From a virus: 62,341 nt of DNA. The translations under genes and the position numbers were made by a program. Numbering within the stretch: position 1 is the first letter of the stretch; every line of letters starts with the position of its first letter. The DNA is taken from the IMG/VR virus record IMGVR_UViG_3300042485_001404, positions 1 to 62,341 of that record; one strand, written 5' to 3'. Below, piece after piece: positions 2,990 to 23,320 of this stretch. The notes under the pieces were generated by a model. That model was not told where the DNA came from and did not search any database. It saw only the letters and a list, made by a program, of their open reading frames with translations.

Positions 2990-3443
2990 AGAACAGCTTA
3001 AAAGATTAGAGGAAGATGCTAATCTTCAGTTCATTGTGTTGTTGACTATTATTATTCAAAAGATAGAATTTCTTGAAGAAAGAGGTTATATCTATGGTAA
3101 CATAAAGTCTTTCATTAAGAATAGTAAAACTAAATATGAAAGTTTCATAAACAAAGTATTTTCTTTTCAAGATGAAGTAGAAGGTAATGATGCTACTCAA
3201 GCTACCAACAAATTACTTGTAATGCAAGAAAGAGTAGAGTTAGCCTTAGAGAATCAATACATACTTACTGTAGATGAGAGAAGAAGAAAAGCTAGAAAGA
3301 TTCTAAAGAGAATGTTCTTAGAACAATACAAAGTAATGGGATTACATAAATCTATGACACCACAACTTCTTAATCAAATGAGAAGAAATACTGTTAAAGA
3401 AACTCTAGAAGAAATGAAATACCAAAACTTATTTAACTTTTAA
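2973..3443 (+). CDS. Helical protein of unknown function, 156 aa
   Basis: Not recognised. The sequence is mostly charged helix, with a Lys/Arg-rich stretch (DERRRKARKI, about 105-114) near the middle to end and no membrane segment. It overlaps the preceding OB-fold gene by 17 bases and ends two bases before the DNA polymerase start, so it is placed inside the replication operon. A polymerase or helicase accessory role is possible from context only. Confidence 0.7.
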   Translation: MQALSKEQLKRLEEDANLQFIVLLTIIIQKIEFLEERGYIYGNIKSFIKNSKTKYESFINKVFSFQDEVEGNDATQATNKLLVMQERVELALENQYILTVDERRRKARKILKRMFLEQYKVMGLHKSMTPQLLNQMRRNTVKETLEEMKYQNLFNF

Positions 3444-3445
3444 AG

Positions 3446-5332
3446 ATGAGATATACCATATTTGATATTGAAACTGATGGGCTTTTAGACCAATTAACTA
3501 AAATGCACTGTTTATGTGCTGCTATCTATGAAGACAATGTTCTTATAGAAGAGGTTACCATCACTTCTTTTGAAGAATTGGTACCATTTTTAGAAAGACA
3601 AAAGATTCTTGTAGGTCACAATGTTGTTAGATATGATTTTCCTGCTATTAAAAAGCTAACAGGCTATAGACATAAAGGTGTTATAATAGACACTTTGGCT
3701 CTTTCTTGGTATCTATACCCAGAAAGAAAAGAACATGGCTTAGAATCTTGGGGAGACACTGTAGGCATAGCTAAACCTGAAATTAAAGATTGGGAAAACC
3801 TTTCTTTAGCAGACTATGTACACAGATGTTCTACAGATGTTGTAATAAATTCTATTGTATTTGGAAACTTTATCAATTATCTTAAAGATATATATGCTGG
3901 AGAATCTATAGAAAGGATTATGCATTATCTGACTTGGAAACTAGATTGTGCAGCAGAACAAGAAGAATATCCTTTGTCTATTGACAGAGAATATTGTAAA
4001 AGAACTCTATCTACTTTAAATAACTTTGTAGAAGAAAGGAAGTTAGCTTTGAAATTAGCTATGCCAAGACAAATTAAATATCTTGAAAAAGGTAAGCCAA
4101 GTAAAATGCTTACTGTTAAAGGAGAACTTACTAAAGCAGGTATAGCATGGTTAGAATTATTAGCTGACAATGATTTAGAAGCTGATTTTGAAGGTAGTAT
4201 TTCTATAATCAAATCTTCTGAAGAACCTAATCCTACTTCTATATCTCAACTTAAAGAGTGGTTATTTAGTTTAGGATGGCAACCCACTATATTTAAGCAT
4301 GTTCCTAATAAGGCAGGAGAAGTTAGAGCCATACCTCAACTACAAGATAATGATAAGAGATTGTGTGCTAATATTACAGTACTATCTGAAACATATCCTG
4401 TACTTGAAAACCTTAAAGGTTTGTTTATGCTTCAACATAGAGTAGGTGTATTGGAAGGATTCTTAGAGTGTTCTAATGAAGAAGGTAAGATGGCAGCATC
4501 TATTGCAGGATTTACTAATACTCTTAGATTTAAACATAAGAAACCAATTGCCAATCTTCCTTCAGTGGACAAGCCTTATGGCAAGGAGATTAGAGGTGCT
4601 ATTATTGCTCCTGATGATGCTCATTTATTTTGTGGTTCTGATATGTCTTCTCTTGAAGATAGTACCAAGCAACACTATATGTATTTCTATGACCCTGAGT
4701 ATGTGACTCAAATGAGAGTGCCAGGATTTGATCCTCATCTTGATATTGCAGTTCTTTCAGGTATGCTTACAGCAGAGCAAGTTGAAGACCATAAGCTTTA
4801 TGATAATTCAGGAGGTAAAGAAGGAACTTCTTATAAGAAAATTAGATCTAAAGCTAAGGTAATTAACTTTTCAGGTATTTATGGAGCAGGACCACCTAAG
4901 ATTGCATTAACTACAGGTATGTCTTTAGCAGAAGCCACAGCACTACACAAAACCTATTGGGAAAGAAACAAGGCTGTAAAACAGATAGCCAAAGACTGTG
5001 TAGTAAAATCTATAGGTAAACAAATGTGGTTGTATAATCCAGTAAGTAGATTTTGGTATTCTTTGAGAACAGACAAAGATAGGTTCTCAACACTTAATCA
5101 AGGTACAGGAGTATATTGCTTTGACACCCATGTTAGAAATGTAAGAATACAAGGCATCAAAATAAGTCTACAATACCATGATGAAATTGGTTTTGTATTT
5201 CTTAAACCACAAGAACAAGAAGTAAAAGATAAACTTAACACAGCTATAGTAATTACTAATGATATATTGAAACTCAATGTACCATTAGGAATAAGTATAG
5301 ATATAGGAAAAAATTATGCAGAATCTCATTAG
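3446..5332 (+). CDS. polA: Family A DNA polymerase with 3'-5' exonuclease
   Basis: Replicative DNA polymerase. The N-terminal DnaQ-type proofreading domain shows Exo I FDIET (D7, E9), Exo II HNVVRYD (N59, D64) and Exo III near D131. The polymerase domain shows motif A SDMSSLE (D399), motif B with R467, K471 and YG (479-480), and motif C HDE (578-580). There is no 5'-3' exonuclease domain, as in T7 polymerase. At 628 aa it is a normal size for phage family A enzymes, and family A polymerase is one of the two alternatives known in crAss-like phages. The ATG at 3446 puts the first exonuclease motif six residues in, so the start is well supported. It overlaps the next gene by 17 bases. Confidence 0.95.
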   Translation: MRYTIFDIETDGLLDQLTKMHCLCAAIYEDNVLIEEVTITSFEELVPFLERQKILVGHNVVRYDFPAIKKLTGYRHKGVIIDTLALSWYLYPERKEHGLESWGDTVGIAKPEIKDWENLSLADYVHRCSTDVVINSIVFGNFINYLKDIYAGESIERIMHYLTWKLDCAAEQEEYPLSIDREYCKRTLSTLNNFVEERKLALKLAMPRQIKYLEKGKPSKMLTVKGELTKAGIAWLELLADNDLEADFEGSISIIKSSEEPNPTSISQLKEWLFSLGWQPTIFKHVPNKAGEVRAIPQLQDNDKRLCANITVLSETYPVLENLKGLFMLQHRVGVLEGFLECSNEEGKMAASIAGFTNTLRFKHKKPIANLPSVDKPYGKEIRGAIIAPDDAHLFCGSDMSSLEDSTKQHYMYFYDPEYVTQMRVPGFDPHLDIAVLSGMLTAEQVEDHKLYDNSGGKEGTSYKKIRSKAKVINFSGIYGAGPPKIALTTGMSLAEATALHKTYWERNKAVKQIAKDCVVKSIGKQMWLYNPVSRFWYSLRTDKDRFSTLNQGTGVYCFDTHVRNVRIQGIKISLQYHDEIGFVFLKPQEQEVKDKLNTAIVITNDILKLNVPLGISIDIGKNYAESH

Positions 5333-10601: not shown

Positions 10602-11630
10602 ATGAGCAATTATCAATACCATTCAGATAACTTAAATAGAAGAGGTTTTATTAGTAAAGAAAGCATCTTAAGTCAAGTGACACAGGAAGAAATCTTTCAG
10701 TTAGTGTTCAAGTTTGCTCCTGAAGAATTTGACTATGTTGTTTCTCCTTTAAGAAGGGATAAAACTCCAGGCTGTTGGTTTAGTTACCATACTACTGGAG
10801 TTCTTTATTTCATTGATTTTGCTAGTAAAAGAACTCATAGTGATTGCTTTAATATAGTACAAGACTATTTCCAATTTCCCAATTTCTATCTGACTTTAGA
10901 ATACATTTACAACACCCTTATTCAAGGGAATGTTGCTCTGAAGCCCATAATACATTCAGAAGAAACTAAGAAATTAGCTAAAGAAAAAGTCAAACTCCTA
11001 ATTGAGGCAAGATCCTTTAGTTCTGCAGATGCACAGTTTTGGTCCCAATATGAGATTAGGAAACAGCACCTGATTGAAGACAGGGTATTTCCAGTTCAGA
11101 AGCTCTTTGCTTTAAACACTAAATCAGGTAGTCATATCATTGACTGTAAGGACATTGCTTACAGTTACAATGATTTTCCTGAAGCTAGAAAGAAAATCTA
11201 TTTTCCTATGAGAGAAGGCAAAAGAAGGTTCCTAACAAATTGTACTAAGAATGATGTAGGTGGCATCAATTCTTTAGTGCCTTATGGGAAAGAACTAATC
11301 ATTGCTAAATCTTATAAAGACTATAGAGTACTGAAGAATAATGGCAAGAATGTGGTATGGTTTCAGAATGAGGGTATGATACCCAATGACTCAATTCTAA
11401 ATGTTTTAATTCAACATTTTGTTTCTGTCATTGTATGGTTTGATAATGATGAACCAGGTATAACAGCCTCTGAAAGAGTCAAGAACTACATTAATACTTT
11501 TATTCCAGGTAAGGCTAAGAATCTTTGGCTTCCTGAGAGAGGTTTAGAGCTGGGTATAAAAGACCCTTCTGATTGCATAGCAAAAGATAAAATTTTATTT
11601 CACAATTTTCTAAAAGATTTTACACAATGA
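10602..11630 (+). CDS. DnaG-type primase without zinc-finger cysteines
   Basis: Makes RNA primers for lagging-strand synthesis. The N-terminal part keeps the CHC2-like pattern SPLRRDKTPGCWF (about 48-60) but the Cys/His zinc ligands around it are absent. The Toprim domain is clear: KSYKDYRVL near 231 and FDNDEPG with acidic residues D281, D283, E284, followed by LGIKDPSDCI near the end. At 342 aa it is shorter than DnaG and lacks a C-terminal helicase-binding domain. It overlaps the next gene by ATGA. Loss of zinc ligands suggests template recognition differs from bacterial DnaG. Confidence 0.85.
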   Translation: MSNYQYHSDNLNRRGFISKESILSQVTQEEIFQLVFKFAPEEFDYVVSPLRRDKTPGCWFSYHTTGVLYFIDFASKRTHSDCFNIVQDYFQFPNFYLTLEYIYNTLIQGNVALKPIIHSEETKKLAKEKVKLLIEARSFSSADAQFWSQYEIRKQHLIEDRVFPVQKLFALNTKSGSHIIDCKDIAYSYNDFPEARKKIYFPMREGKRRFLTNCTKNDVGGINSLVPYGKELIIAKSYKDYRVLKNNGKNVVWFQNEGMIPNDSILNVLIQHFVSVIVWFDNDEPGITASERVKNYINTFIPGKAKNLWLPERGLELGIKDPSDCIAKDKILFHNFLKDFTQ

Positions 11631-12166
11631 ATTTTAAGATTATTCACTCATCTTGGAACCCACTATTATCTGAGTTCAACACAGATGCTTTCTTAACTTT
11701 TAAAAATGAGATTCTAGTAAAAGAAAAATATTACCCTGAAGCTGATGAAGTATTCAGGGTTTTTTCTATGCCCTTGTCAGACATAAGGTTAGTCACTATC
11801 TTAAACAATTTTAGGATAATGAACATTGAAAAGCCTGTGGAACAAGGAGTTTTCTTTCTGCCTGTAACCTTAACAGAGGGAACAGATACAGATCACACAG
11901 AATACTGGGAACCTTTTATTAAGAAAGTCATTTATTTTATTGCAAGGAATCATCCTTGTATTTGGGTTCTCCCAACAACCAAATCACAAAGTTATGCAGC
12001 TAATCTACCTGTTAAAACTATTTTTAATGTGATGAAATATGATGATGAAACAATTCATCAAATTCCTATTAATGTAGATTACAATTATGTGTTTAAAGGA
12101 ATTAATATTAACTATAAGCACATAAATATCTTGCTAAAAAAGCTAGGTAAAAAAGAAATCAATTAG
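11627..12166 (+). CDS. Uracil-DNA glycosylase homologue, catalytic motifs lost
   Basis: The whole 179-aa chain follows the family-1 UDG pattern: an N-terminal helix ending in YYPEADEVFRVF, then strand VTILN where the water-activating GQDPY loop should be, then GVFFLPVTLTEG (74-85) where UDG has GVLLLNxxLT, then DHTEYWEPF (89-97) for SHxxxGWExF, then a strand CIWVLP for VFLLWG, and a last part ending KHINILLKKLGKKEIN for hFsxaNxyL..IxW. Every catalytic element differs: GQDPY reads NNFRI (60-64), the Asn of LLN is Pro79, and HPSPLS is missing near 145-155. UDG genes are known in crAss-like phages. This one is probably a non-enzymatic DNA-binding or polymerase-cofactor protein, comparable in principle to the poxvirus D4 processivity role, but that is inference. 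Confidence 0.6.
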   Translation: MNFKIIHSSWNPLLSEFNTDAFLTFKNEILVKEKYYPEADEVFRVFSMPLSDIRLVTILNNFRIMNIEKPVEQGVFFLPVTLTEGTDTDHTEYWEPFIKKVIYFIARNHPCIWVLPTTKSQSYAANLPVKTIFNVMKYDDETIHQIPINVDYNYVFKGININYKHINILLKKLGKKEIN

Positions 12167-12189: not shown

Positions 12190-12819
12190 ATGAGTACTCA
12201 ACAAGAAAGAGAAATTACTATTTATGCCACTAGAGGTGGTCAAATGAAAAAAATCAACACTGCAGCAACTACTTGGGGTGAATTACAATCTTTAGTAAGA
12301 GCTGAAGGATTTGATTTAAGTTCATTATTAGCAGCAGAAAACATCAACAAGTCTGACTTAGTTAATGATTTAGCTGTGTTACCTACAACTGCTTTTAGAT
12401 TGTTTCTAAGACCAAAACAAACTAAATCTGGTGCAACTCCTGATAGAAAAGAATGTTTTTCTATCATCAAAGCTCACATTATTACATTTCCTGAAGATAA
12501 ACACTTGTTTAATATTGATGGTAAAAATGTAACTCAATTAGCTACACCTGTTGTACAAGAATTAGTAGCTAGATTTTGTACAAGAAGTACAACTTCTCAA
12601 CAAGTTGTAGCTACTCTTGATTCTATTGACAATTCTGATTTATCAGATATTGAAAAAGTTCAAGAAGCTATTGAATTACTTTCTACTTTAAATGAGTATA
12701 GTGCTCATTATGAAGCTTTTGAAGCTTTAGAAGAATTGTTAGAAGAAGTAAAACTTTTTTCTAATGTTTCCTCAGAAGAAGAAGAGTTAGCTAAAGAAGC
12801 TAGAAAGTTAGGTTATTAG
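12190..12819 (+). CDS. Ubiquitin-like (beta-grasp) modifier protein, 209 aa
   Basis: Residues about 8-75 read as a beta-grasp domain: two beta strands around a GG turn (TIYATRGGQMKKI), a helix (WGELQSLVRAEG), and closing strands ending FRLFLRPKQTKSG. Residues 85-209 are helical and acidic, ending in AKEARKLGY. The genes downstream are E2-like, JAB and E1-like, which is the partner set for a ubiquitin-like modifier. The chain ends in LGY; removal of the last Tyr by the JAB protease would expose a C-terminal Gly, the residue an E1 adenylates. An intrinsic terminator right after the stop would give more of this protein than of the enzymes, as suits a consumed modifier. The fold is my reading of the pattern and not a search result. 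Confidence 0.6.
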   Translation: MSTQQEREITIYATRGGQMKKINTAATTWGELQSLVRAEGFDLSSLLAAENINKSDLVNDLAVLPTTAFRLFLRPKQTKSGATPDRKECFSIIKAHIITFPEDKHLFNIDGKNVTQLATPVVQELVARFCTRSTTSQQVVATLDSIDNSDLSDIEKVQEAIELLSTLNEYSAHYEAFEALEELLEEVKLFSNVSSEEEELAKEARKLGY

Positions 12820-12827
12820 TATTAATC

Positions 12828-12862
12828 AAGGGCTTATGTAATGTAAGCCCTTTATTTTTTTA
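12828..12862 (+). terminator. Intrinsic terminator between Ubl and E2-like genes
   Basis: Perfect 9-bp stem AAGGGCTTA/TAAGCCCTT (828-836 with 844-852 of the 12000s), 7-base loop, then a T-rich tract to 12862. It lies two bases before the start of the E2-like gene. Confidence 0.85.
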
Positions 12863-12864
12863 TT

Positions 12865-14070
12865 ATGAGAAATATAAAAGATAATAATGAGTATGGTTCT
12901 GAAATAAAAAAAATACTCAATAATGCAACTTTAATGGGTCTCCATAAAAACAAGAAGTTTTTAGCTACTTTATTTGACAAGTTTCACATTACAATGCCAG
13001 GACATGCATCTAGTAATAAAGAGAAAGTTAAAGCTGATTTTTTTACCATATTAGATTTATTTGAAGCAAAGTATAAAGACCAAGCTGATTTAGGTTTTCA
13101 TTATGATGAAGACAAAAATATAATGATACCTTACTTTAAAGTTATTTATCCAAAGTTTACTATCACTAATAGTCAAGGAAGATCTCATGTAATAAAAGAC
13201 CTAATTGTATGTCATACTTTTAAATTTGGAAATGGTTGTGTTTATCCTTCTAATTTATGGGGCACAAGATTGTCTAAAACTCATTTAGAAGTTCTATCTG
13301 GATATAATCAAAGTCATTTACCAAGACAGTCAGATTGGGCAAATACTTCTTTTTATTGTCAGCGTTTTTGTATAGGTTCTGACACAGATGTAAGCAGAAT
13401 GTTAGCAGAGTTTGAGGTAGAAATGGATTTAGACAGATATGAGTTATTCTTATTTTGTGTAGACAGTATGGTTACTTGGGAATCTTTAGAGGGTGTACCT
13501 TATATTAAAATGGAAGTAATTACTAATGCAGGATCTGATAGAGTTACAGGTGTTTCTGATGTTCTTATAGATAAAGTAGTTAAAACTATTATAGAAGAAA
13601 AACTTCCTTTAGATGTAGATTTCTATTTAGATGAAGGTATTTATAAAATACTTCCTAATGAAAGAGCAGGAGAATTTGTCAAGAAAATAGTAATAAGAAA
13701 GGTTCAGTTTGAAGAATCAAGAAGAATCCTTGTTAGTAGAGTTCCTAATACTTATGATAACTACTTGATGATGAAAACAGACTCATCTTTAGCAAGAAGT
13801 ACATCTAAGATTAACTCTCCAGATTACATCATTTTTAGGGGTAAAAAAGTCTACCCTAGAATAATTAAAGAAGATAGTAGAACTCAGGTTGCTGCTACAA
13901 TTGAAGACTATATTGTTTATCCTAAATTTTTAAAAAATGTCATTAGAAAACTTGAATACAGAATCTATGAAAAAGCAGTTGTCAAGAATGCAACTAAGCT
14001 CTTTAATACCCGTAGTGATGCCTCTAGAAGTGTTGCATCAGATACAGTATCTGTGCAGATTAATTTCTAA
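12865..14070 (+). CDS. Putative E2-like conjugating protein, 401 aa
   Basis: Encoded between the Ubl-like gene and the JAB and E1 genes. The central region has features of prokaryotic E2 (RWD-fold) proteins: beta strands at about 88-135 including GCVYPSNLWG, then SHLPR (H151) and, after a loop, FCIGS with Cys169 as the candidate thioester cysteine, followed by a helix (DVSRMLAEF). Prokaryotic E2 families commonly show an H-x-H/P element before a CxG cysteine. Residues 190-401 form a further alpha/beta part ending in a basic region; I do not recognise it. The 3' end overlaps the next gene by 134 bases in another frame. The E2 assignment depends strongly on the neighbours; an unrelated adaptor is possible. 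Confidence 0.5.
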   Translation: MRNIKDNNEYGSEIKKILNNATLMGLHKNKKFLATLFDKFHITMPGHASSNKEKVKADFFTILDLFEAKYKDQADLGFHYDEDKNIMIPYFKVIYPKFTITNSQGRSHVIKDLIVCHTFKFGNGCVYPSNLWGTRLSKTHLEVLSGYNQSHLPRQSDWANTSFYCQRFCIGSDTDVSRMLAEFEVEMDLDRYELFLFCVDSMVTWESLEGVPYIKMEVITNAGSDRVTGVSDVLIDKVVKTIIEEKLPLDVDFYLDEGIYKILPNERAGEFVKKIVIRKVQFEESRRILVSRVPNTYDNYLMMKTDSSLARSTSKINSPDYIIFRGKKVYPRIIKEDSRTQVAATIEDYIVYPKFLKNVIRKLEYRIYEKAVVKNATKLFNTRSDASRSVASDTVSVQINF

Positions 14071-15139
14071 AGTAGAATGGTCAGGTGCTTTATTTTATAC
14101 TACAGAAGGTAGTATTGAAGACCCTTCAACATTTAAAATTACTTTAAAAACAATCCTTCCTTTAGATATGGGTTCTCAAGCCTATACTGAATACAATCTA
14201 GATGATAGATTTATGGATTTTATTGAAGAAGATTTTGAAGAGAGATGTACTTGGAAATTAGGGCATATCCATAGTCATAACAGTATGGCAGTATTTTTCT
14301 CAGGTACTGATATGGCAGAATTAAATGACAATGCTCCAGCACACAACTTTTACTTATCCTTAATTGTAAACAATGCCATGGATTTTATGGCCAAAGTTGC
14401 CTTTATAGGAGAAGCTAAAAGAGATATTAAACAGGTTCCTTATACAGCTAAAAATGTACAAGGCCAAGATTATATCATTGAGAAACAAGACTTTGAAGTT
14501 AACCTTCAAAAGTTGTTTATATATGACTGTGAAATTGATGCTCCTCTGATTAAAGCAGAAGTAGATGCACAATTTGCAGAGCAAGTTGCTAAAATCATGG
14601 AACCTAAACCTGTAAAAACTTTTGCTAAGTTCTCTCCTGATACCCAGACTCAATTTGGAAAAGGATGGGCTAGAAAAGAAGAAAAGAAAGATAAGTTTTG
14701 GGATACACCTGTTAAAAAGCCTTTTGAAGATTGGGACTTCCCTTATTTAGGCAAAGAAGAATATAATTTAGCAGAGTATGATTTAAGAGCTCAATCTATT
14801 TACAATTTTGCTAAGGCATTATTTGGTAAGGTTAGTTGTTTAACTCCAATAGAATTTGAAGAAGCAGAGTTAGAAGATGTCATAGATGAGTTGATTGAAT
14901 ATAGATTTTCTTATGCAGAAATAGCAAAACATATTATAGACAATTATGCTAAAACTTTTGCTATTCATTTTCCTAAAGCTTCTGCTACTGATTTTGTTCA
15001 GTACACAAATGAGTTAGTGGACTTACTAGAAGATTTGATTATGTTCTATCCACAACTTAAATTGACTATCAAAACAATTACATCAATGATTGATAAATTT
15101 ATTTCACATGAGACAAAGGGACACAACACAACAAAGTAG
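13937..15139 (+). CDS. JAB/JAMM-domain isopeptidase-like metalloprotease, 400 aa
   Basis: Zinc-dependent JAB domain in the first 170 residues. The JAMM motif is complete: E47 (VEWSG), H112 and H114 (HSH), seven residues, S122 and D125 (SGTD). Such enzymes remove ubiquitin-like proteins from targets or trim modifier precursors. Residues 200-400 are a helical, charged extension of unknown role. The frame opens at 13937, 134 bases inside the E2-like gene; Met18 (13988) or Met28 (14018) are alternative starts that keep the JAB fold intact, so even the shortest form overlaps by about 50 bases. The gene overlaps the E1-like gene by 50 bases. Overlaps on both sides point to coordinated translation of E2, JAB and E1. 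Confidence 0.85.
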   Translation: MSLENLNTESMKKQLSRMQLSSLIPVVMPLEVLHQIQYLCRLISKVEWSGALFYTTEGSIEDPSTFKITLKTILPLDMGSQAYTEYNLDDRFMDFIEEDFEERCTWKLGHIHSHNSMAVFFSGTDMAELNDNAPAHNFYLSLIVNNAMDFMAKVAFIGEAKRDIKQVPYTAKNVQGQDYIIEKQDFEVNLQKLFIYDCEIDAPLIKAEVDAQFAEQVAKIMEPKPVKTFAKFSPDTQTQFGKGWARKEEKKDKFWDTPVKKPFEDWDFPYLGKEEYNLAEYDLRAQSIYNFAKALFGKVSCLTPIEFEEAELEDVIDELIEYRFSYAEIAKHIIDNYAKTFAIHFPKASATDFVQYTNELVDLLEDLIMFYPQLKLTIKTITSMIDKFISHETKGHNTTK

Positions 15140-15806
15140 ATTTAAAGATGCTCCTTGGTTTCCTAGACACAATGAATTGTGTTTAGTAGGTGGAGCTGGT
15201 GGTATTGGTTCTTGGTTAACCTTTTTCTTAACTAAGATAGGTTTCAAAGTTAATTTGTATGATTTTGATGCTGTAGAAGACCACAACTTAGGTGGACAGT
15301 TATTTCAACAAGCAGATCTTGGGAAACCTAAAGTATTGGCTATGCAAAGTATAATTCGTAACTTTTGTAATGGTAATATCTCTACTTTTAATGAAGCAAT
15401 TACTAGAAATACACCTCATCATTATTACAGTTTTTCTGCTTTTGACAATATGGAAGCTAGAAGAACTTTATTTATGAATTGGAAAGATTCTTGGGGTTCT
15501 GCTGAAAACTTGGATACTCCTATATTCATAGATGGTAGATTAGAGATTGAGCAGTTACAAATATTTTGTGTGACACCTAGAAATGCAGATAAGTATGAAG
15601 CAGAGCACTTATTCCATGACTCAGCAGTTGAAGAAGCTCCATGTACAATGAAGCAAACTTCTCATACTGCAGCTATGATAGGCTCTCTTATGTCAGCTTT
15701 CTTTACTAATCATATTACTAATGTTTATTTAGGTGAGACCCTCAGAGAAGTCCCATTCTATTATGAGTTTGTAGTTCCTATGAACTTCACACAATCTGAA
15801 TTATGA
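15090..15806 (+). CDS. E1-like (ThiF/MoeB family) activating enzyme
   Basis: Adenylates the C-terminus of a ubiquitin-like protein and can pass it on as a thioester. Nucleotide-binding loop GGAGGIGS (34-41), acidic strand YDFD (D58, D60), N66, GKPK (K81), FDNMEAR (118-124) and DGR (148-150) are the expected E1 signals. Cys185 in APCTMKQTSH is the candidate catalytic cysteine. The arginine of the usual NxxRQ segment is replaced (NLGGQ), which is unusual. At 238 aa it is a minimal E1 without zinc-binding Cys pairs or an extra domain. A likelier start may be Met7 (15108), since residues before it are not part of the fold. Overlaps the JAB gene by 50 bases and the next gene by ATGA. Confidence 0.88.
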   Translation: MINLFHMRQRDTTQQSRFKDAPWFPRHNELCLVGGAGGIGSWLTFFLTKIGFKVNLYDFDAVEDHNLGGQLFQQADLGKPKVLAMQSIIRNFCNGNISTFNEAITRNTPHHYYSFSAFDNMEARRTLFMNWKDSWGSAENLDTPIFIDGRLEIEQLQIFCVTPRNADKYEAEHLFHDSAVEEAPCTMKQTSHTAAMIGSLMSAFFTNHITNVYLGETLREVPFYYEFVVPMNFTQSEL

Positions 15807-16993
15807 TTACTAGAAGTACCATAGGGTCTATGAAAACTTCCCAGTTTGAAATGACTGCTGTTATTGCTAATGATTACATTCCTTTATTTGCTTTTCAACA
15901 AGCTATAATTCATGATGAAGTTATTGGTTACTACAATAAACCTTCAAGAGAAGATTGTCTTGTTAAAGCTAACACTATTAAAAACATCAGAGATGCTTTT
16001 GAAATGGCTCATAACCCAAGGAAAATCAATATCAATGGCAGGAATTTTATTATAGCTAAAGGAGTTTTTCTTTCAGAGTCAGGGGAAACCCTAATGATTT
16101 GCTCTATGAAGAAAGAACACTTTTTAAATCCAAGTGTAGATAACTTCTCTGATTATTATTCACTTGGTAAATCCACATTCTCCTACTCAAATTATGTTTT
16201 ATTTTACTCCACTTCTTTTTTCACTGACCCTAGTCTAAGTGCCTTAAATAGGAGACTTCAAAAAGAGATGTTACAATTTTGCTATGAAAAAGGAATAGAA
16301 GTCAGAATGCTGCCTTCATCAGAAATTGAAAAGAATACCTTTGCAAAATTATTTGAAGTCAAAAAGACAAAGTCTTTGACACAATTAGAAGCCTACATGG
16401 CACAAGTACTACCAAACTTTTTACACAATGGAGGAGAGGACACCTTTATTGAGCAAGATTTTGAACCAGTAGTATATGAACATGAAGAAGAACTTTCTGT
16501 AGAACAAGAAGCTTTATTGTATGATTCTGAAGCTCAACCTGAAGAAGAATTTGATGATGATGAAATTTGGGATGATGATTTAGAAGCAAATAATGAATTA
16601 GCTGCTGAATTAGCTGAATTAGCTGCTGAAGCTGCTCAATTTGATCAACCTTTAGACCCACCTACTGTAAATACAGAAGATTGGGAAGGAGGTTGGGAAG
16701 AAGCTGAACAAGCTGTTGAAGAATTAGAAAGACAAGTAGAAAGACAATCAGATGAGGAAGTTACCCATATAACTCAACCTTATTCTGAAAACCCTATTTT
16801 ATACAGATTTATGTCATATCCAGTTACACAAGGAGAATGTTATGTCCCTGTTAGAAATGAGGATAACTTTGAGTCTGAAATTGTTAGACAACAACGTAGA
16901 GAACAAATAGAGCAAGATTTTGCTTTATTTAGTCTCCACAATACTGTTACAACTTCTAATCCTTCAATAGAGCTTATTGATGATACAGAATAG
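15803..16993 (+). CDS. Unknown acidic protein coupled to the E1 gene, 396 aa
   Basis: Not recognised. Residues 1-195 look like a folded alpha/beta domain (for example NINGRNFIIAKGVFLSESG near 75-93). Residues about 215-310 are very acidic with an Ala/Glu/Leu helical repeat (ELAAELAELAAEAA) and a DDDEIWDDD patch; the last 80 residues are polar. It overlaps the E1-like gene by ATGA, so it is probably translated with the Ubl cassette and may be a target, adaptor or regulator of it. No E3, nuclease or membrane signature is visible. Confidence 0.75.
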   Translation: MITRSTIGSMKTSQFEMTAVIANDYIPLFAFQQAIIHDEVIGYYNKPSREDCLVKANTIKNIRDAFEMAHNPRKININGRNFIIAKGVFLSESGETLMICSMKKEHFLNPSVDNFSDYYSLGKSTFSYSNYVLFYSTSFFTDPSLSALNRRLQKEMLQFCYEKGIEVRMLPSSEIEKNTFAKLFEVKKTKSLTQLEAYMAQVLPNFLHNGGEDTFIEQDFEPVVYEHEEELSVEQEALLYDSEAQPEEEFDDDEIWDDDLEANNELAAELAELAAEAAQFDQPLDPPTVNTEDWEGGWEEAEQAVEELERQVERQSDEEVTHITQPYSENPILYRFMSYPVTQGECYVPVRNEDNFESEIVRQQRREQIEQDFALFSLHNTVTTSNPSIELIDDTE

Positions 16994-17036: not shown

Positions 17037-17549
17037 ATGGGAATTGGAGCAACAAACAAAAGAAAGGGAAGTACTGCAGAGAGATTTTATGCCAAGTTCT
17101 TTAGAGAATTAGGTTTTACTTTCTGTGAAACTTCCCGTTTTGTAAGCAAAAAGCATGACAATGCAAAGATAGACTTGATGTACATTCCTTTTAATTTACA
17201 AATTAAAGCAGGTATTCAAAAAAATATGAATCCTGGTAAGGAATTGTTTATGATGGCTACTTCAATTGCTAGCATGTTTCCTTTAGAAGATGATGTTCAT
17301 AAAAGGCCTTGTTTATTAGTTCACTACAAACAAGGTAAGCCTGGAGTTAAAAGAACTCCAGAGATGGAAATGGTGTATATGTCTATGATACAGTTTGATT
17401 TATTTAGAAGTAAAAGCCCTCAGTTAGAGTACTCTATGCTGAAGGACTTCAAGTTTGACTTGAATTCTGAATTTAAAACTGTTGTAGGCATGACACTAGA
17501 CCATTTTAAAAATGAAGTAATCTTAAAACAATATGTAACATGTCAATAA
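17037..17549 (+). CDS. PD-(D/E)XK endonuclease, Holliday-resolvase-like
   Basis: Nuclease fold seen from an early Glu E15 in GSTAERFYAKFF, D46 in AKIDLM and Q55-x-K57 in LQIKAG, the E-x(n)-D-x(n)-QxK pattern of archaeal Holliday-junction resolvase and phage VRR-type enzymes. Length 170 aa fits. It would cut branched DNA before packaging or in recombination. The gene begins 43 bases after the preceding stop and overlaps the next nuclease gene by 10 bases, so two PD-(D/E)XK enzymes are made together. Confidence 0.75.
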   Translation: MGIGATNKRKGSTAERFYAKFFRELGFTFCETSRFVSKKHDNAKIDLMYIPFNLQIKAGIQKNMNPGKELFMMATSIASMFPLEDDVHKRPCLLVHYKQGKPGVKRTPEMEMVYMSMIQFDLFRSKSPQLEYSMLKDFKFDLNSEFKTVVGMTLDHFKNEVILKQYVTCQ

Positions 17550-18691
17550 TTGTAGCTACAAAACAACAAGTACAAGAGTACTATGAGACTGATGCCTTAG
17601 GTCAGTCTAAATTAAAATTATTATTAGGAGATTTGGGTTCTTTTCACAAAGAATTTGATTCTTCAGCAGAGCATTTCTTAATAGGTTCTGCAGTAGATTG
17701 TATTTTAACTAATTCAAAACAAGCTTTTGAAGAAGACTATTACATATCAGAGATAGAAAAACTACCTTCTGATGCTATAGTAGAGATTCTAAAGTTAGTT
17801 CACAATGAGTTATTAGAAGACTATGCAGAACATCTAGAAGTAATTATAGGTCAAGAGAATCCTTTACCTGTAACCCCTTTCTATCAATTTGTAGGAGAGT
17901 TGAAAAATTGGGCAGCATACATTCTAGATGCTTGTGAGAAAACAGGTTGGCAACCAAGATGGGGTGATGATGCTAAATTAAAGAATGTAATAGAACCTGG
18001 TTCTGAGTATTTCTTAGATTTATGCAAGGCTTTTGGAAAAACTGTAATAAGTAAAACTCAAGCTAACACTATCCTATCTATTGTTGACTCCTTGGAGACT
18101 AGTCCAAGAACCTCAATTTTCTTTAACAGAGAACTTTATGGACAATTACCTGAAAGTCTAACAGTTTACTATCAATTTCCTATTTACTTTGAGTATAGAG
18201 GAGTTAGTTGTAAAGCCTTGTTAGACATGGTTTTTGTAGGTAGAGATGAGGAAGGTAATCTATTAAGTGTTACAGGAGTAGATTTAAAAACTATGAATGG
18301 TAACACTTTCTATTTCCCTAGTAGTGTAAGGGCAAGAAGATATGATATCCAAGCTGCTTGGTACACTCTTGCTTTACAAACACATTTTGCAATTCCAGAA
18401 GATTCTAGTATTATGAAACCTTTCCAATTTGTTGTGGAGTCTACTTCATATCAAGGAAAACCTTTGAATTTTGTTGTTGATGCTTCCTTATTAAAAATGG
18501 GAAGATTTGGTAGAAAAGCTGTTATGTCTAATGAAGATTTTATGTCAACTACACTTCAATATGAAATCAAAGGCTTTGAAAAACTCTTAGATCTCTATAT
18601 TTATCATTCTGAGAATGGTTTTAGAGAAGAAAGAGAAATTCAAGAAGCAGGGGTTGAACCACTAGTAATCAACTGGGATGGTGTTATCTAA
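17540..18691 (+). CDS. PD-(D/E)XK nuclease of RecB/RecE-Cas4 type, 383 aa
   Basis: Catalytic residues D229 (LLDMVFV) and D248-L-K250 (GVDLKTM) in the usual strand-turn-strand order, followed by a helix with RRYDIQAAWYTLAL (Q-motif typical of RecB-family nucleases). N-terminal SQSKLKLLLGD-like helix and GSAVDCIL (G-x-x-D in place of the G-x-x-H motif) also fit. Such enzymes resect double-stranded ends to 3' tails that an annealing ATPase such as the one at 8651 can use. Overlaps the neighbours on both sides (10 and 14 bases). Confidence 0.82.
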   Translation: MSIIVATKQQVQEYYETDALGQSKLKLLLGDLGSFHKEFDSSAEHFLIGSAVDCILTNSKQAFEEDYYISEIEKLPSDAIVEILKLVHNELLEDYAEHLEVIIGQENPLPVTPFYQFVGELKNWAAYILDACEKTGWQPRWGDDAKLKNVIEPGSEYFLDLCKAFGKTVISKTQANTILSIVDSLETSPRTSIFFNRELYGQLPESLTVYYQFPIYFEYRGVSCKALLDMVFVGRDEEGNLLSVTGVDLKTMNGNTFYFPSSVRARRYDIQAAWYTLALQTHFAIPEDSSIMKPFQFVVESTSYQGKPLNFVVDASLLKMGRFGRKAVMSNEDFMSTTLQYEIKGFEKLLDLYIYHSENGFREEREIQEAGVEPLVINWDGVI

Positions 18692-19304: not shown

Positions 19305-19306
19305 TT

Positions 19307-19483
19307 ATGAACACTATTGAACAAATTGAAGCACAAGTTGCACAATTAAAATTAGAAGGAGAGAAATTCTTCACAAAAGGAAACAAGTCTGCAGGAACTA
19401 GACTAAGAAAACTTGCAATGGACATTACAAAGAATTGTAAAGCCCTAAGAATTGAAGTACTTGAGGAAAAAAGTAAAGCTTAA
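19307..19483 (+). CDS. Histone H1-like (Hc1-type) basic protein, 58 aa
   Basis: Short protein (start ATG at 19307, stop TAA at 19481-19483). The segment GNKSAGTRLRKLAMDITK (25-42) is the hallmark of the bacterial histone H1-like family frequent in Bacteroidota and their phages; the rest is helix rich in Lys and Glu. The family binds DNA and compacts nucleoids. It could coat replicating phage DNA or alter host chromatin. It is preceded by two bases after the 18678 gene and followed by a strong terminator, so it is the last gene of that transcript and may be made in quantity. Confidence 0.8.
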   Translation: MNTIEQIEAQVAQLKLEGEKFFTKGNKSAGTRLRKLAMDITKNCKALRIEVLEEKSKA

Positions 19484-19495
19484 TTTCAAAAATCA

Positions 19496-19533
19496 GAGGG
19501 GGACATCAATGTCCCTCTCTTAATTTTATTTTT
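19496..19533 (+). terminator. Intrinsic terminator after histone-like gene
   Basis: Stem of 10 bp with one G-U pair (19496-19505 with 19510-19519), loop TCAA, followed by a T-rich tract running up to the next start codon at 19534. Confidence 0.85.
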
Positions 19534-21409: not shown

Positions 21410-22485
21410 AGACAAAAATTAGTGCTACAATAGTAGCCCACTCTGTAAATGAGCAAGGAGATGAGTTAATCTCAGTCCTTGCTACATTTCCTAGAATTAT
21501 CTTAGCTGAGGTAAATACTCACAGGATGCTTTCTAAGAACACATCTTCTTCAAGAGCTATTCCATTTGCTAAAATGGTAGAAACTATTCAGAATGACCCA
21601 TTTATTCCTATTGCTTGGCAAAAAGCACACTCAGGTATGCAAGGTACTGAGTATCTAAATGCTTTTGACTCTGAGTGTGCTAAAGAAGATTGGTTAACTG
21701 CTATGGAATATGCAGTAGAAGTAGCAAGTAATTCTAATAAAATAGGTGTTACTAAACAGCTTTGTAACAGATTGTTAGAACCTTTTATGTGGACTACTAT
21801 GTTAATTACAGGACCTAAATCAGGTTGGGACAATTTCTTTAACTTGAGGTGTCCTGAATACAGAGACAGATCTATTAAAGGAGGAGGCTCTTTATATATT
21901 CATAGGAGTAAGAAAGAGTTTTTAAAGTATGATTATGGACAACATGCTAAAGATTTTACAGATTTAGAGTGGTTTAAAATTAATGAAGGCCAAGCTGAAA
22001 TTCATATTATGGACTTAGCTGAGAAGATTTATGATGCTTATAATGAAAGTACTCCTAGAGTATTAAAAGCTGGAGAATGGCATATTCCTTTTGAAAATAA
22101 GATGACAGAGCCTTTCTTTAAAACTACTACAGATGAGAATGGTACTCTATCTTGGATTCCTTTACCAGGATTTGATGCTGGTGCAAAAGAATGGCTTGAA
22201 AATCAAAAAGTTAAAGTCTCTGTGTCCATGGCAGCAAGAACTTCTTATACTGTAGTAGGAGAAGAAAAAGCTATTGACTATGAAGCTATGATTAAGTTAC
22301 ATGATAGATTACTTGCTCAAAATCCTCCTCACAGTTCTCCTTTAGAACATTGTGCAAAAGCTATGACTCAAGAAGAATATTGGTCTTCTTTTGGAACTAC
22401 TTCTCAAAACACTAAAGGTAATGGGTGGTGTAACAACTTGAAAGGATTTATTCCTTATAGGTATTTAGTAGACAATGGAAATTAA
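21406..22485 (+). CDS. thyX: FAD-dependent thymidylate synthase (ThyX), reordered form
   Basis: Makes dTMP from dUMP with methylene-tetrahydrofolate and FAD. The ThyX signature, normally RHRxxSxNxxSxR, is THRMLSKNTSSSR at 38-50. A second part has WDNFFNLR near 138-145 and GQAEIHIMDLAEKI near 194. The C-terminal part carries AARTSY (about 275) and HSSPLEH (about 310), elements that come before the RHR motif in standard ThyX. The chain is 359 aa against about 220-250, with extra residues between NLR and QAEI. This order is known in some phage ThyX-like proteins, so it is not unique. Dependent on the phage's own nucleotide supply. The start overlaps the previous gene by ATGA. Confidence 0.85.
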   Translation: MKTKISATIVAHSVNEQGDELISVLATFPRIILAEVNTHRMLSKNTSSSRAIPFAKMVETIQNDPFIPIAWQKAHSGMQGTEYLNAFDSECAKEDWLTAMEYAVEVASNSNKIGVTKQLCNRLLEPFMWTTMLITGPKSGWDNFFNLRCPEYRDRSIKGGGSLYIHRSKKEFLKYDYGQHAKDFTDLEWFKINEGQAEIHIMDLAEKIYDAYNESTPRVLKAGEWHIPFENKMTEPFFKTTTDENGTLSWIPLPGFDAGAKEWLENQKVKVSVSMAARTSYTVVGEEKAIDYEAMIKLHDRLLAQNPPHSSPLEHCAKAMTQEEYWSSFGTTSQNTKGNGWCNNLKGFIPYRYLVDNGN

Positions 22486-23320
22486 GAAACAGAAAACCAA
22501 AACCTTAGTTACCAGAGATAATAGTAGGAGCAGTGATGCCATTGCTCCTAACTTTATTTATGGTTGTCTAGGAGGTTGTATGAAGTCTTATTGTTATGTT
22601 GGTAGGTATAATCATGATAAAGTCTATATCAATGAAAATACAGAGCAAATTTTAGCCTCTATCTATGCTTGGGTTGATTCTAAACCTTGGCCTAAAGAGT
22701 CCAATCAAGTAGATGATACTTACTATTGTGTTGACATAGGGTGTAGTACTGATGTAGCTTTACACAGTAAACACTATAATTGGCAACAGGTATTTGATTT
22801 TTTCAATACCCAATACAAAGTAAAATCAACTTTTGCTACTAAATATCCTACTAAGTTTAAGCTAGATGAGTACAACTTAACTCCAGGTAAACACAGGATA
22901 AGGGTAAGTCTTATGCCTCAAAAGATCTCAAGTATCCTAGAACCCAATACTGACAGCATAGCTGATAGAATTGCTATGATACCTGTACTCCAAAAGAAAA
23001 TGGAAGTGCATATTAATTTTAGTCCAATAGTCTACTACCCTGGTTGGTTAGAAGACTATGAAGATTTGTTTAAGCAACTTCAAGGATTAGAGTTTAAATC
23101 AGAGTGTATATTTGTGACTTACAATAAGATACAAGCTGAAAGAAATAATCCTGATGTGAATTATTACTTGTGGCAGCCTGATTTGCAAGAAGCTAAAAAC
23201 TCTGAATATGCTGCTGACAATATTAGATACAAGTACCAATTTAAGTATGTACTTGTAGATGATTTTAAAGAAGCTTATTCTAAATATTTTCCTTTAGAGA
23301 GTATCAGATATATCTTTTAG
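22475..23320 (+). CDS. Radical-SAM protein, spore photoproduct lyase-like, 281 aa
   Basis: Cluster motif CLGGCMKSYCYVGR (31-44) gives three cysteines, C31, C35 and C40. Spacing C-x3-C-x4-C differs from the usual C-x3-C-x2-C. The opening IAPNFIYG before the cluster resembles the spore-photoproduct-lyase-like proteins known in phages and marine bacteria, and the rest (residues 80-281) fits a partial TIM barrel. The family repairs UV thymine dimers or carries out unknown radical chemistry. It follows ThyX with an 11-base overlap, so a link to thymine metabolism or repair is plausible. Confidence 0.65.
   Translation: MEIKKQKTKTLVTRDNSRSSDAIAPNFIYGCLGGCMKSYCYVGRYNHDKVYINENTEQILASIYAWVDSKPWPKESNQVDDTYYCVDIGCSTDVALHSKHYNWQQVFDFFNTQYKVKSTFATKYPTKFKLDEYNLTPGKHRIRVSLMPQKISSILEPNTDSIADRIAMIPVLQKKMEVHINFSPIVYYPGWLEDYEDLFKQLQGLEFKSECIFVTYNKIQAERNNPDVNYYLWQPDLQEAKNSEYAADNIRYKYQFKYVLVDDFKEAYSKYFPLESIRYIF

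Follow-up and report, generated by a model that had tools for sequence, protein, structure and literature searches.

A probable ubiquitin-like conjugation module in the replication block of Fpv-like and crAss-like phages, and its resemblance to plasmid PRTRC operons

The type 6d operons of Iyer et al. (2006; PMC1779556) comprise a ubiquitin-like protein (Ubl), a JAB protein, an E1, an E2-like protein and a helical protein, and they correspond to the plasmid operons that now carry the annotation PRTRC (NCBIfam TIGR03734-03742). In the BilABCD system, the JAB protein has been reported to process the Ubl precursor, thereby exposing its glycine (PMC11354881). Here we describe a comparable gene set carried by a virus, found in the 62,341-nucleotide (nt) IMG/VR record IMGVR_UViG_3300042485_001404 (hereafter the window), in which genes for a Ubl precursor, an E2-like protein, a JAB/JAMM protease and a single-domain E1 lie side by side. 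Of the known arrangements, that of the type 6d PRTRC operon of plasmids comes closest, rather than that of Bil. We interpret the module as a phage-encoded ubiquitin-like conjugation cascade, with a probability of roughly 0.7.

A preliminary description of this DNA had proposed four adjacent genes of these types, and the corresponding open reading frames (ORFs) are indeed present at the positions collected in Table 1, all on the plus strand. Its broader claim, that the phage owns an apparently complete Ubl/E2/JAB/E1 set within its replication block, also holds, and the catalytic residues are under strong selection. For the first gene, described as a beta-grasp modifier, an AlphaFold2 (AF2) model built from a 33-sequence alignment shows a beta-beta-alpha-beta-beta order with a predicted local distance difference test (pLDDT) score of about 90 across the beta-grasp. 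Foldseek comparison of this model with the PDB returned mostly ubiquitin, SUMO, NEDD8, ISG15 and UBX domains (E about 0.002-0.007, probability about 1.0, and, for the small domains, a target-normalised TM-score of about 0.65-0.72), and model and search both give a ubiquitin-like fold.

Right behind the last strand of this domain, nearly every homologue carries the motif Lys-x-Ser/Ala-Gly, of which K79 and G81 are invariant in the 33 sequences. This position is the site of the tail in ubiquitin, while the true C-terminus of the Ubl protein is not conserved and the sequence behind the motif ranges from about 60 to 250 residues among homologues. The protein has a beta-grasp fold with Gly81 placed after the last strand, and maturation is predicted to occur at this glycine. 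In cr106_1 (L067 5465-6668), the Ubl ORF stops at KIKSGKF, and an inserted gene for an HNH endonuclease separates it from the tail, an ORF of its own that matches the Ubl family model at 1.4e-5. This natural break lies two residues past the predicted mature glycine and supports the idea that the Ubl domain and the tail are separable there. The invariant Lys-x-Ser/Ala-Gly and the cr106_1 split are new observations, as is the conserved terminator hairpin described below.

The JAB protein had been credited with an intact JAMM motif, and E47, H112, H114, S122 and D125 are exactly as claimed, forming the E...H-x-H-x7-S-x2-D pattern of JAMM/MPN+ proteins and varying in none of 30 homologues, the most distant of which share about 19% identity. 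The window protein by itself gives a weak Pfam match (0.045); Prok-JAB is matched by 29 of the 30 family members (best E 1.1e-6), and the top PDB matches of the family profile are CSN5 and Rpn11-like proteins. In Flavobacterium phage Fpv1 (L081 2501-4793), an opposite-strand gene annotated as an endonuclease (3017-3766) interrupts the JAB gene, which is uninterrupted in FpV4; a known intron family was considered for this split and for that of the Ubl gene in cr106_1, and no Rfam match was obtained.

The E1 is a minimal protein of 232-238 amino acids (aa) with a single ThiF Rossmann domain (Pfam ThiF, E 7e-15; best NCBIfam score also to ThiF, 3e-13) that contains the G-x-GG-x-GS loop and the catalytic residues of the E1-like superfamily. 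The glycine loop (GGAGGIGS), D-x-D, N..GQ, K, DNM..R and a single cysteine show no or almost no variation across 28 sequences. When its family profile was compared with the PDB, UBA5 was the best match (E 5e-11), and MccB (5e-10), SUMO E1, NEDD8 E1, Cap2 and BubCD were also matched. The minimal E1/ThiF assignment, with its GGAGGIGS loop and candidate cysteine, thus stands, and the numbering needs amendment: relatives begin at the position corresponding to ATG 15108, for which reason this codon is probably the start rather than TTG 15090, and the residue first called C185 would then be C179.

The E2-like protein is the weakest link of the conjugation reading, and its assignment as an E2 is probable, judging from residue conservation and a model. 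The proposed C169 is invariant in a 27-member alignment, where it sits within an invariant FC-x-G, 17 residues past an invariant SHL (S150-H151-L152); E206-S207-x-E209-G210-x-P212 is likewise invariant. The AF2 model (pLDDT 84.5) consists of a helix, a four-strand meander, a loop bearing SHL and C169, and two helices, which is the order of elements in an E2, and a search of the viral library recovers the crAss-like homologues. The position of the candidate cysteine and the order of elements fit the preliminary assignment and make an E2 fold plausible; the fold matches, given below with the other points against conjugation, are weak.

The order Ubl-E2-JAB-E1 is kept in FpV4, K. tikkala, DAC15, Dulem virus 41, bajarodcaudo virus 1, Kolpuevirus, cr85_1, cr106_1 and phiCrAss001 (gp79-gp76, followed by gp75), as well as in more than 30 IMG/VR contigs. 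The module lies just downstream of the primase, with the gene for uracil-DNA glycosylase in between in Fpv-like phages, and it is shared by the Fpv phages and Steigviridae (phiCrAss001 gp75-79, DAC15, Kolpuevirus). In three Suoliviridae loci none of the four families was found, and resolvase or exonuclease-type genes follow the primase within about 1.6 kb. A primase search recovered 95 records and an E1 search 78, so that this part of the replication block is restricted to a clade. Among 84,980 species genomes scanned, only two contigs were recovered (L069 and L070, from GTDB metagenome-assembled genomes named Clostridium and Spirochaetia); a bacterial chromosomal source was rejected, as both appear from their gene content to belong to crAss-like phages and to have been binned with bacterial sequence. 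Searches of plasmids by tblastn gave only generic ThiF family matches and no plasmid relatives for the E1, and no matches for one phage Ubl domain. Conservation of the module in cultured phages makes the observation stronger than first stated.

The only gap inside the module separates the Ubl gene from the E2-like gene by 45 nt and holds an intrinsic-terminator-like hairpin followed by a U tract (z -4.3 versus shuffles). A strict scan detected such a hairpin in 29 of 33 distinct relatives, and 43 of 1650 trials with shuffled gaps scored at least as high; among the outliers of the scan, L002 and L064 show a hairpin by eye and L020 reflects a mis-set start. The stem sequences vary between clades. 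No comparable hairpin was found in the other gaps of at least 15 nt examined between 5333 and 17036. A long two-frame overlap of the 3' end of the E2-like gene with the 5' end of the JAB gene is also kept in most relatives, its length being about 20-290 nt, in most cases 60-160, wherever neither gene is interrupted; the ends of both proteins seem conserved.

The start codon of a fifth gene overlaps the stop codon of the E1 gene within the 4-nt sequence ATGA. It is present behind the E1 in most relatives and is weakly recognised in phiCrAss001 gp75. Its acidic tail, absent in some clades, often ends in hydrophobic-x-hydrophobic-hydrophobic-D-D (IELIDDTE in the window; INLIDDTE, FEIIDDTA and FVLVDDTD in others), and this C-terminal pattern can be read, from its residues, as resembling a SUMO-interaction motif.

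Taken as a cascade, the module might operate as follows. The Ubl would be synthesised as a precursor that ends in a tail, and the JAB protein would cut behind KSG and expose Gly81. The single-domain E1 would then adenylate this glycine and hand the Ubl to the cysteine within the E1, to C169 of the E2-like protein or to both, and the E2-like protein would join it to lysines of targets; removal of the Ubl by the JAB protein would make the mark reversible. The terminator behind the Ubl gene would yield the modifier in excess of the enzymes. If conjugation occurs, replication and recombination proteins of the phage or the host would be the most likely targets, a first guess from gene position to which we give slightly less than even odds. 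A more tentative extension is a self-contained, SUMO-like reversible system that is owned by the virus and devoted to the replication or recombination of its DNA, possibly with gene 5, through its SUMO-interaction-like tail, as reader or E3; such a system would occur in cultured crAss-like phages of the gut and have a parallel in PRTRC on plasmids.

Several points weigh against a conjugation cascade with replication targets. The Ubl lacks Gly-Gly, and no sequence family recognises the protein, leaving it without a sequence link to any Ubl family. Foldseek matches of the E2-like model, which include CENP-O (E 0.005, probability 0.25), the TSG101 UEV domain (E 0.08, probability 0.54) and FTS, are weak hits of the UBC/UEV/RWD type, none of them significant, and a Pfam scan of the 27 E2-like members found no E2 family in any. 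Profile comparison of the Ubl and E2-like proteins with PRTRC C and B was not significant. No E3 was identified for the module, and gene position is the sole pointer to replication as its target.

Other explanations can be weighed against the same evidence. Bacterial Ubl systems such as BilABCD act against phages, and DNA phages are their targets, so that the JAB, E1 and E2 of the phage might be directed at host Ubl immunity (Bil, Bub, CBASS Cap2/3), stripping, misdirecting or saturating it, with the JAB protein as deconjugase and the Ubl as decoy. Such counter-defence is unlikely: stripping host marks needs no full E1-E2-Ubl set, the module is not closely related to Bil or Cap2, and, whereas anti-defence islands are variable, it keeps its place beside the primase in divergent phages that infect different hosts; nothing in the analysis points toward counter-immunity. 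Sulfur-carrier or small-molecule chemistry, in which the E1 would thiocarboxylate the Ubl as a sulfur donor (as with ThiS, MoaD or CysO) or modify a peptide as MccB does, would accord with the ThiF and MccB matches of the E1, and a JAB protein paired with a sulfur carrier does occur in bacteria. This reading is improbable, as it leaves an E2-like protein with an invariant cysteine unexplained in a replication neighbourhood where no sulfur-metabolism, rhodanese, cysteine-synthase or thiolase gene was recognised.

The long tail of the Ubl and the long C-terminal regions of the E2-like and JAB proteins might instead suggest a non-covalent assembly, with the Ubl precursor, the E2-like protein and their partners gathered in a complex at the replisome and the enzymatic folds acting chiefly as scaffolds; in line with this, the fold matches of the E2-like protein are to non-catalytic proteins of the UEV/RWD type. 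The invariance of the E1 and JAB catalytic residues and of the E2-like cysteine over a large divergence, however, makes such an assembly very improbable. A reversible conjugation cascade would mean that phages do not only suffer ubiquitin-like tagging, since a group that includes common gut viruses would own a tagging machine, and that Ubl conjugation serves the replication of mobile DNA in bacteria, much as SUMO and ubiquitin do for replication in eukaryotes. Because the plaque-forming phiCrAss001 of Bacteroides intestinalis carries an analogous module (gp75-79), its role is directly testable.

Table 1. Positions of the module and its immediate neighbours in the window
Feature	Position (nt)	Strand	Remarks
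Ubl precursor gene	12190..12819	+	N-terminal beta-grasp domain (residues ~7-76), KSG 79-81 (nt 12424-12432), ~128-aa mostly helical tail
Terminator-like hairpin and U tract	12820..12864	+	Stem 12828-12852, U tract 12853-12862, Ubl/E2-like gap
E2-like gene	12865..14070	+	Candidate catalytic C169 (nt 13369-13371)
JAB/JAMM isopeptidase gene	13937..15139	+	E47, H112, H114, S122, D125; additional C-terminal region
E2-like/JAB out-of-frame overlap	13937..14070	+	134 nt
E1/ThiF-like single adenylation domain	(15090 or 15108)..15806	+	Candidate catalytic Cys nt 15642-15644
Gene 5	15803..16993	+	Conserved N-terminal domain, acidic tail
DNA primase	10602-11630	+	Directly upstream context
Uracil-DNA glycosylase	11627-12166	+	Directly upstream context
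RusA-like resolvase	17037-17549	+	Directly downstream context
Exonuclease VIII-like	17540-18691	+	Directly downstream context

The upstream part of the replication block encodes an SF1 helicase, a family A DNA polymerase, a helicase, a DnaB-like helicase, a Sak4-like annealing protein, the primase and the uracil-DNA glycosylase, and the downstream part the RusA-like resolvase, exonuclease VIII, Thy1 and a DNA ligase. A further terminator-like hairpin occurs in this block in a 229-nt gap (19305-19533), and a spore photoproduct lyase-like protein (22475-23320; Pfam SPL 1.8e-13) adjoins Thy1. The phage had been called crAss-like, which needs correction: its closest named relatives, the Flavobacterium psychrophilum phages Fpv1-21 (Fipvunavirus), are not placed in Crassvirales in their records, and it is the module that is shared with the Crassvirales family Steigviridae. 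One 338-aa window protein is 56% identical in Fpv phages, where it overlaps an annotated structural protein. Existing labels for the module genes are only "thiamine biosynthesis", "metalloprotease" or "hypothetical", and no published description of the module in crAss-like phages was found in the literature searched, which did not cover subscription papers, so that an earlier mention is possible.

Among the systems with which this module can be compared, Bil likewise has Ubl, E2, JAB and E1 as four genes. Membership of Bil, a system that the preliminary description had named as a known case of this gene set, is rejected on domain architecture: BilA has two Ubl domains and BilD an inactive and an active adenylation domain, in contrast to one beta-grasp domain and one short adenylation domain here, and the arrangement is PRTRC/6d-like. 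PADLOC BilD matches the E1 only at E 0.006, more weakly than many other E1 models do, and Bil is a bacterial defence operon, whereas this module lies in a phage replication block. CBASS Cap2/Cap3 and Bub (BubCD) share the E1 adenylation chemistry, in keeping with the appearance of Cap2 and BubCD in the E1 profile search, but have a fused E1-E2 (Cap2, PADLOC E1-E2) in place of four separate genes. The lambda tail assembly proteins TAPI/TAPK are a phage-encoded Ubl with JAB (Iyer et al., 2006; PMC1779556), but they lack an E1 or E2 and serve tail assembly rather than replication.

The plasmid PRTRC loci were located by tblastn with a PRTRC C probe, which matched 236 plasmids, for the most part at genes annotated "PRTRC system protein C"; only database sequences were used afterwards. 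No PRTRC operon is annotated in p5482 or in the first 50 kb of pMOL28, and the literature searched gave no informative account of the role of the operon. The module differs in being phage-borne, in its much longer E2-like and JAB proteins, and in an E1 that scores 31.4 bits against a TIGR03736 cut-off of 144.75. TIGR03737 (B) and TIGR03738 (C) have no NCBIfam match in the window, TIGR03737 being absent also from the FpV4 and tikkala records; gene 5 and the other module proteins match neither the PRTRC E nor the F profile, and no ParB was recognised near the module. A terminator behind the PRTRC Ubl gene was rejected as a shared feature, being clear in one of six gaps examined, that of a Cupriavidus plasmid (L073 6226-6318), where a clear hairpin and U tract are seen. 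Because profile comparison links the E1 (7e-16 to PRTRC ThiF) and the JAB protein (about 3e-5 to 9e-5 to PRTRC A, across the JAMM core, which may be general JAB homology) but not the Ubl and E2-like proteins, the module is not filed as a PRTRC member. The plasmid order (E)-C-F-B-A-ThiF nevertheless gives, F aside, the relative order Ubl-E2-JAB-E1 seen here, again as separate genes, with an E2-like B bearing a C-x-G cysteine, a JAB protein (A) and a single-domain E1. In PRTRC C proteins the domain closes with a KG (TKG-like), which in a few of them is followed by a tail; at the annotated plasmid loci, parB, ssb, dnaG or dnaN occurs within 6 kb, just as the phage module is always found near the primase.

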